Assembly: GCA_016868665.1 (NCBI GenBank)
Contig: VGGK01000016.1
Location: 1 to 52,525, forward strand
Direction: 5' to 3'
Length of the DNA stretch: 52,525 nt
Origin: Chlorobiota bacterium
GTDB taxonomy: Bacteria; Bacteroidota; Chlorobiia; Chlorobiales; Chlorobiaceae
Below are positions 41,827 through 52,129 of this stretch, piece after piece. The first letter of the stretch is position 1, and every line of letters begins with the position of its first letter. Below the pieces are notes generated by a model that worked only from the letters and a program-made list of their open reading frames with translations, made no database searches and was not told where the DNA came from. The position numbers and the translations under genes were made by a program.

Positions 41827-42957
41827 ATGAATATCACCACCGAATCACAACAGGAAGTCTGGCACGACTTGCAGAAGCCGGGCGCCTACGAGTGGTGGTA
41901 TTTCGATGCGGAAGATAAGGTCAGGGGCATATCTGTCGTACTTATCTGGTTTTCCGGTTTCCCGTTCTCCCCCTATTACATGCAGCGCTATGATGAGTGG
42001 AAACGCAGCGGTAGCAAGGCAATGCCCTTGCCTTCCGAACATGCGGGTTTCAGTTTTCAGCTTTATGAACAGGGACGGGAAACGCTCAATTTCATCAGAG
42101 AGGGAGGCCTCGGTCTTTTTCATGCCGACCGGGAGGGTATCGGCATCGGGTTTGAGAACAACCGTTTCAGCTACGATAAAGAGAGTGACGAGTATCGGCT
42201 CGATATCGATTTTTCCTTTCCTTCAAGGAATCGACAGGTACGGGCCGGATTGCTGTTCAGGACGTGTCGTCGCGTCTGCTATGCAAAAAAAGACAGAAAC
42301 AGCGTTGAGCCGGGATCTTGTCACCAGTGGCTTCTGAGCGTTCCGAAGGCAGATGTCAGCGGTTTTATAGACATAACCGGCGAAAACGGGGGCGGCTCGC
42401 GGCATATCGGATTTTCGGGGGACGGATACCATGATCATAATCTCGGCACCATGCCCATGCAGGAATATATTTCGCGGTGGTACTGGGGCAGGGCGTTTTC
42501 CGATCGGTATGATCTCATCTACTACATGGTTTTTTTCAGGAACGGCGGCTTCAGGCCATTGAGCCTGCTGATGCTGCATGATAATATGGAAGAAAAATCA
42601 TCAGTCATCGATTCGCTGCAGTTCAATGAGCGGGATTATGCTGTCGGTTTGTTTTCGCCTCCTCATGGCAGGACTCTCGAACTGTTTTCCAGCGATGCGT
42701 CGGTAACCATTTCCCAGAAAAAAGCGCTCGATGCCGGGCCTTTCTATCTCAGGTTCGCATCAAACATCTCTTTACGGATAGGTGGTGAACAACTGAATGG
42801 AATCAGCGGCATATCCGAGTATCTGAATCCGGTTAGGCTGCAGTCGCGATTCATGCGTTTTTTTACCCGGAGCAGGGTTTGGCGAGAGGGGCAGCCTTCG
42901 TTCATGTATGATTCCTATAATTATTTTAAAGGTCGTTCTGATTGGTTTAAACGGTAA
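41827..42957 (+). CDS. crtC: Carotenoid 1,2-hydratase family protein (CrtC)
   Basis: Adds water across the terminal double bond of acyclic or monocyclic carotenoids. In green sulfur bacteria this gives OH-chlorobactene, a step before glycosylation and acylation. The 376-residue protein has the CrtC/AttH lipocalin-like two-domain layout with the hallmark GAYEWWYFDAED near residue 19, and GYHDHNLGTMP near 203 followed by WYWGRAFSDRYDLIYYMVFF. No signal peptide is seen. It starts at ATG 41827 without a clear ribosome-binding site and precedes petC by about 145 bp. The reaction is assigned by family and taxon. AttH-type relatives with other lipids as substrates are the main alternative. Confidence 0.85.
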   Translation: MNITTESQQEVWHDLQKPGAYEWWYFDAEDKVRGISVVLIWFSGFPFSPYYMQRYDEWKRSGSKAMPLPSEHAGFSFQLYEQGRETLNFIREGGLGLFHADREGIGIGFENNRFSYDKESDEYRLDIDFSFPSRNRQVRAGLLFRTCRRVCYAKKDRNSVEPGSCHQWLLSVPKADVSGFIDITGENGGGSRHIGFSGDGYHDHNLGTMPMQEYISRWYWGRAFSDRYDLIYYMVFFRNGGFRPLSLLMLHDNMEEKSSVIDSLQFNERDYAVGLFSPPHGRTLELFSSDASVTISQKKALDAGPFYLRFASNISLRIGGEQLNGISGISEYLNPVRLQSRFMRFFTRSRVWREGQPSFMYDSYNYFKGRSDWFKR

Positions 42958-45238: not shown

Positions 45239-46612
45239 ATGTCGAACCACGATATCTTCGGAATTTCAACAGAGACTCCTCTGGTGCTTATAGGGCAGAT
45301 GGCGCGCAATCTCAAGCCTCGGCTGATGGCGAAACTGGAGTATATGAATCCAGCCTGTTCGCATTACTACCGGGCTGCATCGGCGGTGATCCGTGATGCA
45401 GAGGAACGGAGACTCATCCATCCGGGCATGACGCTTGTTGACTGGACATATGGCAACAGCGGCATTGCGCTCGCCATGGCCGGAGTCAGTCGCGGGTACA
45501 AACTGCTCCTTGCGGCTCCGGATAAAATATCGCGGGAAAAACAGGATGTTCTGAGAGCTCTTGGAGCCGAACTTGTGATTACGCCTTCCGATGCCCTGCC
45601 GGGTGAACCCCGAAGCTGCGTTAAAGTTGCTGAAAGCCTCGTAAGGAATATATCCAATGCCTTTTTTGCCAACATGTATGAAAATCCGGTCAGTCGCGAT
45701 GTTCATGCCGCCTCTACCGGTTTCGAGATATTGCGACAGACGGAAGGCAGGGTTTCGCATGTTTTCGTGCCGATGATTTCAGGCGCCATGATTTCAGGTA
45801 TCGGGAGTTATCTCAAGGCGGAAAAACCGTCAGTTAAAATTATCGGCGTCGAGCCGGAAGGATCGGTTTATCGCGGCCTGTTCACGAAAGAAGGCTCGAG
45901 CGGACCCTCGGTATATGAACTTGAAGAGATTGGTGCTCCGGAACCTTCGGGATTCTGGGATCCCTCGGTTATTGACGAAATCGTACAGGTCTCCGACGAC
46001 GAAGCTTTCAATTGCGGACGTGAATTGTTCAGGGCTGAGGCTGTTTTTGCCGGTGGTTCGTCCGGAGCGGTTATGGCGGCAGCGCTTCGTGCGTCAGCCG
46101 GATATGGCGAAGGAGATTGTGTCGTTGCCGTGCTGAACGACTTCGGGGGATATTATCTCAGTAAAATGTTCAGGGATGCATGGATGAAGCAGAAAGGGTT
46201 TTACCGGAAGGCTAAAACCGCTCTTGAAAAGATTACCGCCGAAGATATTCTGCAGCTTAAGGCCCGTAAGGACCTGATTTCGGCAAACCCTGAATCCACA
46301 CTTGCCGAAGTGTTTGAGATGATGAAGCAGAACGACGTGTCGCAGCTTCCTATTGTTTCGTACGGTACACCTATCGGCAGCATCAGCGAGAACAAGATTC
46401 TCTCGATTCTCATCGAGAACGACGATGCCATGAATTCGAAGGTGGTGGGTTTCATGGAGCAGCCGTTTCCGGTCTGCCAGCCGGACGCGACGATATCGGA
46501 GCTTTCCGGAAAGTTGCAGGAGAGTTCATCAGGCGTGCTTATCGGTCTTTCTGACGGCAGGCTGCAGTTGCTGACCAAATCCGATCTTATCGACGCGCTG
46601 ACGCATAAGTGA
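45239..46612 (+). CDS. Cystathionine beta-synthase-like pseudoenzyme (fold type II, PLP lysine lost) with C-terminal CBS domains
   Basis: A 457-residue protein that follows cystathionine beta-synthase in order and length. The N-terminal 320 residues match the fold type II PLP-enzyme domain: KLEYMNPACSHYYRAASAV, GNSGIALAMAGVSRGYKLLL, ISREKQDVLRALGAELVIT, IIGVEPEGS, FAGGSSGAVMAA. Three landmarks are broken. The SxKDR motif reads S41-H-Y43-Y-R, so the Schiff-base Lys is Tyr. TSGNTG reads T70-Y-G-N-S-G75. The phosphate loop GTGGT reads I180-S-G-A-M184. Residues about 333-457 are two CBS domains (DLISANPESTLAEVFEMMKQ, QLPIVSYGTPIGSISENKIL). It may bind adenosyl ligands and act as a regulator. It lies 266 bp after the petCB operon, behind a terminator. 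The frame is intact, so it is a functional but repurposed gene. Confidence 0.85.
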   Translation: MSNHDIFGISTETPLVLIGQMARNLKPRLMAKLEYMNPACSHYYRAASAVIRDAEERRLIHPGMTLVDWTYGNSGIALAMAGVSRGYKLLLAAPDKISREKQDVLRALGAELVITPSDALPGEPRSCVKVAESLVRNISNAFFANMYENPVSRDVHAASTGFEILRQTEGRVSHVFVPMISGAMISGIGSYLKAEKPSVKIIGVEPEGSVYRGLFTKEGSSGPSVYELEEIGAPEPSGFWDPSVIDEIVQVSDDEAFNCGRELFRAEAVFAGGSSGAVMAAALRASAGYGEGDCVVAVLNDFGGYYLSKMFRDAWMKQKGFYRKAKTALEKITAEDILQLKARKDLISANPESTLAEVFEMMKQNDVSQLPIVSYGTPIGSISENKILSILIENDDAMNSKVVGFMEQPFPVCQPDATISELSGKLQESSSGVLIGLSDGRLQLLTKSDLIDALTHK

Positions 46613-46823: not shown

Positions 46824-47384
46824 ATGAAGGCAGAGTCCAGAAAAAGGCAGTATATTTTGGAGGGTAAAATAAAGCCCGGATTCTGTGAAGGGTGCGGGCA
46901 GGTGACGGATAAGGTTTTTGTTGGCGAATGGATGCCGAGTGACAAGCCGAAGGTTGACGATCTTCTTGCTGCGAAACCTGCTAAAAAGTCGAAAGATGCA
47001 AAATCCGGTGCTGAAGAAGTTCCGTCTTCAGCCGAGAATCAGTACTGGATACGGTGTTCGGTCTGCAATCAGGTGCATCTGCTTAAGGAGTGGCAGATCC
47101 AGATCGACAGGGAACTGAATCCCGACGAGTTGAATCCCGATGATTGCCAGGTCTATTCTCCTCACGGAATCTACGCCAAAGGAGATGCCCTTTATCATCA
47201 GGCTCTCGATGAAGTCGGCGTCGTCCGAGAGAAACAGGCGACAGGAAGCGGAGCCTATGTTATTATAGTGGAATTTTGTAAGAGCGGCAGAAAGCAGCTG
47301 CTTGAAAACGTTCAGGTGAATTCCGGAAAGGATAAAACCGCCGAAAGCCTGACCGATCTTATCAAACTGAAATTAAGACGTTGA
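46824..47384 (+). CDS. Hypothetical protein with a two-CxxC zinc-ribbon-like N-terminal half
   Basis: A 186-residue protein. Two Cys pairs, FCEGCGQVTD near residue 22 and RCSVCNQVHLL near 78, flank an Ala/Lys/Ser-rich linker (AAKPAKKSKDAKSGAEEVPS) and probably bind one zinc. The C-terminal half has a small beta-rich part (CQVYSPHGIYAKGDALYHQA) with GAYVIIVEFCKSGRKQLLEN. It precedes rpsU by 30 bp on the same strand, so a link to translation is possible. I use ATG 46824 (MKAESRKRQYI); in-frame sequence upstream is not protein-like. No family is recognised. Confidence 0.78.
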   Translation: MKAESRKRQYILEGKIKPGFCEGCGQVTDKVFVGEWMPSDKPKVDDLLAAKPAKKSKDAKSGAEEVPSSAENQYWIRCSVCNQVHLLKEWQIQIDRELNPDELNPDDCQVYSPHGIYAKGDALYHQALDEVGVVREKQATGSGAYVIIVEFCKSGRKQLLENVQVNSGKDKTAESLTDLIKLKLRR

Positions 47385-47699: not shown

Positions 47700-49004
47700 A
47701 TGGGCTTTTTTACAGGTGAAGTGACGGCATTGCCTCCCGATAAATCGATCTCGCATCGTGCGGCGCTTATCGGCGCTCTCTCGGCGGGCGTTACAGAGAT
47801 TACGAACTTTTCCGCGGGTTTCGATAACCAGTCAACGCTCGGTGTTCTCCGTGCTGCCGGCATTGCTGTCGATCAGGGAGAGATTATTGGCTCATATGGC
47901 CGCCCTGTCAGGAAGGTCGTCATAAGATCCGGGGGGCTCTGGAGCTTCACGGCACCGGAAAAACAGCTGATGTGCGACAATTCGGGCAGCACCATGAGGA
48001 TGTTTGCCGGAATTCTTGCCGCACAGCCTTTCGAAAGCGAGCTTGTGGGCGACAGTTCCCTGATGAAACGCCCAATGAAGCGAATTGCCGAACCGCTGCG
48101 CATGATGGGCGCCGGTATAGAGCTTTCTCCGTCCGGAACGGCTCCCGTGCGCATTCGGGGTACCAGGGATCTGAAACCGATAGAGTATTCTTTGCCGGTT
48201 CCTTCCGCGCAGGTAAAGTCGCTGGTGGCATTTGCCGCGTTGCATGCCGATGGCGAAACGCGCATTATCGAACCGATCCGTTCGCGTGACCATACCGAGC
48301 TGATGCTCGGCCTCGAAACCATCGATCGGCCAGACGGCGGTCGGGTGATCGTCATTCCCGGCAGGAAAACCATTGCAGCAAAACCGTTTTATATCCCCGC
48401 CGATCCTTCGGCGGCATGTTTTCTGGTTGCTCTCGGCCTGCTTGGCACCAACTCCGAAATTATCATCAGGGACGTTTGCCTCAACCCGACAAGGGTGGAA
48501 TTCATTTCCGTGCTTTCGGGAGCTGGAGCGGATATTACCATCGAAAACGGCAGAATTATCGGCGGAGAATATATCGGCGATATTCTTGTTCGCAGTACGC
48601 CGGACATGAAGCCGCTTGTTATCAGCGACAAGGTTGTCGTTGCGGGGGTGATCGACGAGCTGCCCATGCTTTCGGTATTATCGGCTTTCGTGTCTGGCGA
48701 GTTCGAGCTGCACAATGCCGAAGAGCTGCGCACGAAAGAGAGTGACCGTATCGATGCCGTCGTGGTGAATCTCGAACGTCTCGGCTTCGAGTGCGAGCAG
48801 TATCCTGACGGGTTCAGGGTTATCCGGCGCAGGAGCAGGCCGACCGGAACGGTAACCGTCGAGTGTTTCGACGATCATCGCATCGCAATGAGTTTTGCTG
48901 TTGCGGCCCGGGCTTCCGGTGAGTCAATTGAGCTTTCCGACAGCGCTGTGGTCGGAGTCTCCTTCCCGAATTTCTTCGAAATCATTGATTCCCTCGAGGC
49001 CTGA
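47700..49004 (+). CDS. aroA: 3-phosphoshikimate 1-carboxyvinyltransferase (EPSP synthase)
   Basis: Transfers enolpyruvate from PEP to shikimate-3-phosphate on the route to aromatic amino acids, quinones and chlorophyll-related metabolites. The 434-residue product has [100 protein letters not shown] and [20 protein letters not shown] in order. The NSGST loop has Ser where many have Thr. ATG 47700 has no strong ribosome-binding site. The rpsU terminator lies just ahead, so its transcription start may be inside that region. Confidence 0.96.
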
Positions 49005-51777: not shown

Positions 51778-52050
51778 TCAATACCTCGGGCGTGACATCG
51801 GACGCTGCTCGCGGGGTTTTGCCTCGTTTACCTTGATGGTTCTGCCGTTCATGTCGGTGTCGTTCAGTGCCGAAATGGCTTCTGAAGCTTCCGCATTGTT
51901 GGGCATTTCAACGAAGCCGAAACCTTTGGAGCGGCCGGTGAACTTGTCGGTGATGACGCTTGAGCTTGATACTTCGCCGAATTCACCGAAAGTTTCGCGG
52001 AGATCGGATTCGGTTACGCCGTAATCAAGGTTGCCAATGTAAATGTTCAT
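51778..52050 (-). CDS. RRM-type RNA-binding protein
   Basis: A 90-residue protein with a single RNA-recognition motif: RNP2 NIYIGNLDYG at residues 2-11 and RNP1 SKGFGFVEM near 43-51, with the linker TESDLRETFGEFGEVSSSSV and an Arg/Pro-rich tail (KPREQRPMSRPRY). It resembles the cold-inducible Rbp proteins of cyanobacteria, which are thought to act as RNA chaperones. I use ATG 52050 (MNIYIGNL), the family start. It has a 200-bp upstream region with a long palindrome. Confidence 0.93.
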   Translation of the reverse strand: MNIYIGNLDYGVTESDLRETFGEFGEVSSSSVITDKFTGRSKGFGFVEMPNNAEASEAISALNDTDMNGRTIKVNEAKPREQRPMSRPRY

Positions 52051-52129
52051 AGTGTAGCAAATAGTATTCGTGCTTTGATCGAAAAGAGAAAGGCTGTCAA
52101 ATAACCAAAAGCACAAATCACTTGAAAGC

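Follow-up and report, generated by a model that had tools for sequence, protein, structure and literature searches.

The question raised by this locus is what a protein that resembles cystathionine beta-synthase (CBS) along its whole length may be doing once the lysine that would hold pyridoxal phosphate (PLP) has been replaced. The gene lies in a 52,525-nucleotide stretch of a Chlorobiota bacterium genome (contig VGGK01000016.1 of assembly GCA_016868665.1), hereafter the window, where an uninterrupted open reading frame of 457 codons for amino acids occupies positions 45239–46612 of the forward strand; its domains and motifs and the two downstream genes described below are read from this strand as well. 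A degenerate PALP catalytic domain, i.e., of PLP fold type II, was recognised at residues 11–301 (45269–46141) by Pfam (7.4e-61), the genome search, and Foldseek, and Pfam reported one CBS domain at residues 342–392 (4.5e-14). The second CBS repeat fell under the Pfam reporting line, but its T446-K-S-D449 motif was nonetheless visible, and the C-terminal CBS pair (Bateman module) was placed at residues 342–457 (46262–46609), which is also the most conserved region of the protein. The order of domains, PALP and then the CBS pair, is that of CBS, as indicated by both Pfam and the NCBIfam CBS equivalog TIGR01137. The latter aligned to residues 4–452, with a score of 336.9 bits that was far below the cut-off of 510.25. 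The first-pass description of a full-length homologue without a frameshift was confirmed. The closest sequence match in the PDB was the Mycobacterium tuberculosis CBS Rv1077 (MtbCbs), aligned over residues 12–454. The AlphaFold model had a mean pLDDT of 68 (mostly 70–95 in the catalytic part and <50 in much of the CBS pair, too low for a judgement on that pair), and its Foldseek matches to CBS and CysK structures included single-domain ones with an rmsd of about 2.2–2.7 Å.

The motif S-x-K-D-R, which carries the PLP lysine, reads S-H-Y-Y-R at residues 41–45 (45359–45373), with Tyr43 encoded by TAC at 45365–45367. The TSGNTG loop reads TYGNSG at residues 70–75 (45446–45463), and the GTGGT phosphate loop reads ISGAM at residues 180–184 (45776–45790). 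These three replacements had been called from the window alone, and all were confirmed in the sequence. A fourth altered landmark, absent from that earlier list, was found at residues 300–305 (46136–46153), where the pyridine-nitrogen site D-[ST]-G-x-R has become N-D-F-G-G-Y and Phe302 replaces the Thr (9/10) or Ser (1/10) of CBS in two sister families of the same order. In CysK and in many CBS, the Ser or Thr at this position is the residue in contact with the pyridine nitrogen. The features of functional CBS absent here are the Schiff-base lysine, GTGGT, TSGNTG, and a score at or above the equivalog cut-off. In MtbCbs, the 412 nm PLP peak was lost in the K44A mutant (PMC9232105).

We searched 86 Chlorobiaceae genomes, among which Prosthecochloris was not recognised, and retrieved orthologues from 79 of them at 68–89% identity (76 full-length and three truncated). 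Among the 73 distinct full-length sequences, Lys never occurred at position 43, which was Tyr in 71; the other two, both metagenome orthologues (L047 and L073), had Asp43 and Ser43, and Tyr at this position is therefore not strictly required. Ser74 (formerly Thr), Ser181, and Phe302 were each present in 73/73 sequences, followed by Tyr305 (71/73) and Met184 (69/73). Position 71 was Phe or Tyr in 66/73, Asn73 was kept in 51/73, and His42 was found at 89%. Positions 44 (mostly Tyr or Cys) and 73 were not fixed. This family-wide alignment had been proposed as a check on Tyr43 and the ISGAM loop, and it returned conservation of Tyr43, Ser181, and Met184.

A decaying remnant without function would agree with the missing catalytic residues and with the existence of an intact gene in the sister families. 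It is refuted by the conservation of the gene, given 76 full-length open orthologues from 86 genomes and a median dN/dS of 0.076 (Nei–Gojobori, 751 pairs), values that also uphold the earlier claim of selection. The adjacent gene was likewise missing from the seven genomes in which no orthologue was found, so that assembly gaps are likely to explain its absence there. We thus regard loss of function by decay as extremely improbable, and recent decay or a sequencing error in the window was likewise ruled out by the 73 distinct orthologues together with the dN/dS.

Outside the family, the motifs were intact. Ten genomes of the two sister families contained an orthologue with 43–48% identity that kept SxKDR, TAGNTG, GTGGT, and D[TS]G, and SxKDR, GNTG, and GTGGT were also kept in all of another 20 CBS genes sampled across the phylum. 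Lys was found at position 43 in 30/30 of these outgroup sequences (10 from the sister families and 20 from the wider phylum), against a residue other than Lys in 73/73 Chlorobiaceae sequences, which argues that the difference is neither chance nor a local error. Most of the sister-family orthologues were located in the same block as in Chlorobiaceae, with CBS followed by a 186-aa gene and aroA, and this shared synteny supports their orthology. The one other family of the order, f2, has the 186-aa gene, and no close CBS orthologue was found in it.

In the maximum-likelihood tree, the lysine-less sequences formed one clade (SH-aLRT 100) inside the CBS clade of the order, and its stem measured 1.04 changes per site. 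When matched genomes were used, the stem was about 1.05 for this gene and 0.53, 0.50, and 0.44 for gltX, aroA, and cytochrome b, respectively, i.e., about twice as long as that of any of the three. Trp69 already occurred in the sister families, as did the replacement of Ser by Ala in TSGNTG, indicating that part of the loop remodelling is older than the loss of the lysine; the intact CBS of the sister-family loci L104–L113 reads WTAGNTG rather than TSGNTG. The first-pass annotation had reasoned that orthologues with SxKDR would make this copy a recent decay product. Such orthologues do exist in the sister families, but the loss is old and fixed in the sampled Chlorobiaceae. Judging from these sequence comparisons, the best explanation is a single conversion of the ancestral CBS of the lineage, on the branch that leads to the sampled Chlorobiaceae.

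The lysine might have been restored nearby in the fold, a possibility raised earlier that did not hold: a comparison of the 73 Chlorobiaceae sequences with outgroup CBS showed no new Lys anywhere in the catalytic domain. The conserved Lys at 32, 88, 101, and 193 were considered as places to which it might have moved, and rejected, as they also occur in intact CBS. Ten positions turned aromatic in the Chlorobiaceae clade, including 43, 71, 240, 302, and 305, of which 43, 71, 302, and 305 belong to motifs lining the PLP/substrate site of PLP fold type II. The marks of a pseudoenzyme that sequences can show, namely common descent with an active-site-intact enzyme, loss of the catalytic motif without a migrated substitute, and selection on the inactive protein, are all present, and it is very probable that the window protein is a pseudoenzyme that is a CBS by descent. 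Such a protein would be unable to perform lysine-based PLP chemistry.

The distribution of constraint has shifted along with the motifs. Within the Chlorobiaceae clade, dN/dS was 0.092 for the catalytic part and 0.044 for the CBS pair, and the order was reversed in the intact sisters (0.055 and 0.072, respectively, from only five pairs). Sites conserved at ≥95% accounted for 87/137 of the CBS pair and 119/320 of the catalytic part in the Chlorobiaceae clade, compared with 43/137 and 175/320 in the intact sisters. The corresponding odds ratios for conservation of the CBS pair versus the catalytic part were 2.9 and 0.38, respectively; the Fisher p-values are descriptive only, as they took sites as independent and the groups were of unequal depth. 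The CBS pair is the most conserved part of the lysine-less protein, the reverse of the situation in the intact sisters.

These patterns bear on whether the protein has become a new, PLP-independent enzyme, with the pocket rebuilt around His42, Tyr43, Ser74, Ser181, and nearby residues and the CBS pair acting allosterically. Such an enzyme would agree with the strong conservation of the pocket residues (Y43 97%; S74, S181, and F302 100%; H42 89%) and with the low dN/dS of the catalytic part itself, and pseudoenzymes with new activities are known, such as SelO and SidJ (PMC10211241). Nevertheless, several of the gained residues are bulky aromatics that do not resemble a catalytic set, positions 44 and 73 are variable, two sequences do without Tyr43, and the CBS pair is more constrained than the catalytic part; we consider a new enzyme unlikely. 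The protein appears instead to be regulatory or structural now.

As for what the CBS pair may bind, the CBS1 motif is G380-SISENKI and the CBS2 motif is T446-KSD449, in which T446 and D449 were present in 68/73 and 73/73 Chlorobiaceae sequences, respectively. These two residues, which form the T/S-x-x-D ribose-contact motif, correspond to T535 and D538 of human CBS (PMC9232105), matched by motif and not by a computed alignment. In CBS1, K386 is located where a ribose-binding Asp is usual, and the same was observed in most sister sequences. The residues proposed to bind SAM in MtbCbs, E390, S411, D432, and W433 (PMC9232105), fall on K386, E407, S429, and S430 here according to a hand-read PDB alignment, and none of the four is kept, so that SAM binding in the manner of MtbCbs is not predicted. 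As a candidate ligand, an adenine nucleotide would be more natural. The first-pass proposal of a CBS pair that senses an adenosyl ligand and acts through a partner may hold, then, but only as a hypothesis; in its favour, the pair is the most constrained part of the protein and retains T446/D449. The tetramer residue E388 of MtbCbs corresponds to E384, which was invariant in 69/69 sequences, and this fits a retained assembly.

The near-invariance of the CBS pair, T446 and D449 included, would be hard to explain without a ligand. It thus weakens the idea of a ligand-free structural or chaperone role, in which the protein would be a permanent component of some other complex, e.g., a heterodimer with an intact CysK. 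The genome does contain two intact CysK genes of the same fold, and dead homologues that activate their partners are known, e.g., the plant TSB-like protein (PMC12727527); even so, a purely structural role seems quite improbable to us. The old active site might alternatively serve as a sensor, with PLP held non-covalently or with an amino acid or sulfide as the ligand, as is reported for CYSL-1 and bisulfide (PMC5562914). Much of the scaffold is retained in line with this, as 50 of the 86 catalytic-domain sites universal in intact CBS are still kept in the Chlorobiaceae clade and the GGxSG turn is largely preserved. On the other hand, the phosphate loop, the Asn loop for O3', the pyridine-nitrogen site, and the lysine are all altered, and Phe302 and Tyr43 would be expected from the fold to crowd the position of the ring, which makes sensing at the old site improbable.

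Six PALP genes were found in the genome of the window, comprising two clear CysK, the lysine-less CBS, and three of other PALP types, which may be TrpB, threonine dehydratase, and threonine synthase. A second, intact CBS or CysK gene had been suggested as something to look for; two intact CysK genes were present, and no intact CBS was found among the six. Elsewhere in the family, one genome contained a separate intact CBS-like gene with 31% identity (L121, G043 C44, 4559–5836), directly followed by a PF01053 gene. The two form an apparent transsulfuration pair, and the CBS-like gene could be acquired or a contamination.

The 186-aa gene (46824–47384) is the usual downstream neighbour of both the intact and the lysine-less CBS, and was detected in all four families of the order, Chlorobiaceae included; aroA (47700–49004) is the next gene of the conserved block. 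The 186-aa protein has four invariant cysteines (C21/C24 and C78/C81) and is a candidate partner. It had no match in Pfam, NCBIfam, or the PDB, and Foldseek returned nothing significant for its AlphaFold model (pLDDT 57). The cysteines form two CxxC pairs, and a C-terminal stretch looks Tudor/SH3-like by eye. Co-acceleration of this neighbour with the lysine-less protein was considered and set aside, as its stem is long (0.96) but it evolves fast within the sister group too. Shared ancestry, and not function, may be what keeps the neighbourhood constant.

Upstream, the first-pass annotation had placed the gene just downstream of the Rieske/cytochrome b operon, which is correct for the window and its close relatives (L001, L004, and L033) but not as a conserved link. 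In four other Chlorobiaceae loci that we read, the upstream neighbour was a divergent alr-like gene, and in the single-contig genomes G025, G001, G002, and G016, cytochrome b was located close to gltX, a long way from this gene (at 1.92 and 0.29 Mb, respectively, in G025). The Rieske/cytochrome b association was accordingly rejected as a conserved context. Terminator-like stems were observed in the gap between cytochrome b and this gene and, stronger, after the 186-aa gene, with counts not above those in shuffled sequences. Control by a riboswitch was also considered, and no Rfam match was obtained near the gene in nine loci. Two further observations concern the surroundings. A 376-aa protein encoded between gltX and Rieske (41827–42957) had only a sub-threshold Pfam match (DA_N) and has the look of a CrtC-type carotenoid hydratase by eye. 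A Chlorobi-RRM RNA (RF01697) was located in L033 (10289–10365, reverse strand) next to the counterpart of the RNA-binding-protein gene at 51778–52116 of the window.

We favour, with confidence only a little above even, a binding scaffold of the dead fold that is controlled by a nucleotide-sensing CBS pair. The catalytic domain would fold as the usual CBS/CysK dimer, with the cofactor pocket filled by the aromatic side chains of Tyr43, Phe/Tyr71, Phe302, and Tyr305, and would act as a scaffold for a partner protein. Through the T446/D449 half-site, the CBS pair would bind a ligand of the adenine-nucleotide type, and this binding would change the oligomeric state or the partner interface. The choice of partner is the most speculative step, and candidates include the four-cysteine neighbour, an intact CysK, and serine acetyltransferase; alternatively, some other protein may insert its C-terminal tail into the reshaped pocket, in the manner of CysE, CdiA-CT, and EGL-9 with CysK proteins. 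A more specific version, in which a cofactor-free nucleotide sensor of the CBS fold arose from the sole CBS gene of the Chlorobiaceae ancestor and controls sulfur assimilation or energy status via a dedicated partner, possibly the four-cysteine neighbour, is offered as a tentative and rather doubtful proposal.

By analogy, the window protein may work most like the binding platforms of the CysK fold, namely CYSL-1 and CysK with CysE or CdiA-CT. CYSL-1 of Caenorhabditis elegans differs from it in being a CysK-type animal protein that has no CBS pair and is reported to keep its bisulfide site. It shares the cysteine-synthase fold, the loss of biosynthetic activity, and action by protein binding (PMC5562914, PMC10942545), being a CysK-derived regulator of EGL-9, and a similar mechanism is inferred. 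CysK in complex with CysE or CdiA-CT is likewise a binding platform whose active site takes the C-termini of its partners (PMC5562914), but these are still active PLP enzymes. Among pseudoenzymes of this PLP fold type for which we found documentation, the nearest is the TSB-like protein of core eudicots, a dead tryptophan synthase beta that is likewise widespread in a large clade (PMC12727527). TSB-like is a paralogue beside an active copy and has two key substitutions, whereas the conversion in Chlorobiaceae affected the only CBS orthologue and altered every PLP motif. Compared with MtbCbs and other CBS recognised by TIGR01137, the window protein has the same domain order, counts MtbCbs among its best fold matches, and has intact CBS as sister orthologues, but it lacks the PLP Lys, GTGGT, GNTG, the pyridine-nitrogen residue, and the SAM-contact residues of MtbCbs.

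To our knowledge, pseudoenzymes derived from PLP enzymes have rarely been documented in bacteria, an impression to which empty paper searches contributed. Our literature search, outside which most subscription papers lay and which leaves absence unproven, found no paper on this protein or on any CBS pseudoenzyme. The locus offers a clean test case for the conversion of an enzyme into a regulator, with a change on a single branch, intact orthologues at the same locus, and a measurable shift of constraint. Automatic annotation of the gene as cystathionine beta-synthase, which is likely, would wrongly credit Chlorobiaceae with a step of reverse transsulfuration. Chlorobaculum tepidum is genetically tractable, so that the role of the protein can be tested. 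If the more specific, rather doubtful proposal is true, a nucleotide sensor would control an important process in sulfide-oxidising phototrophs.
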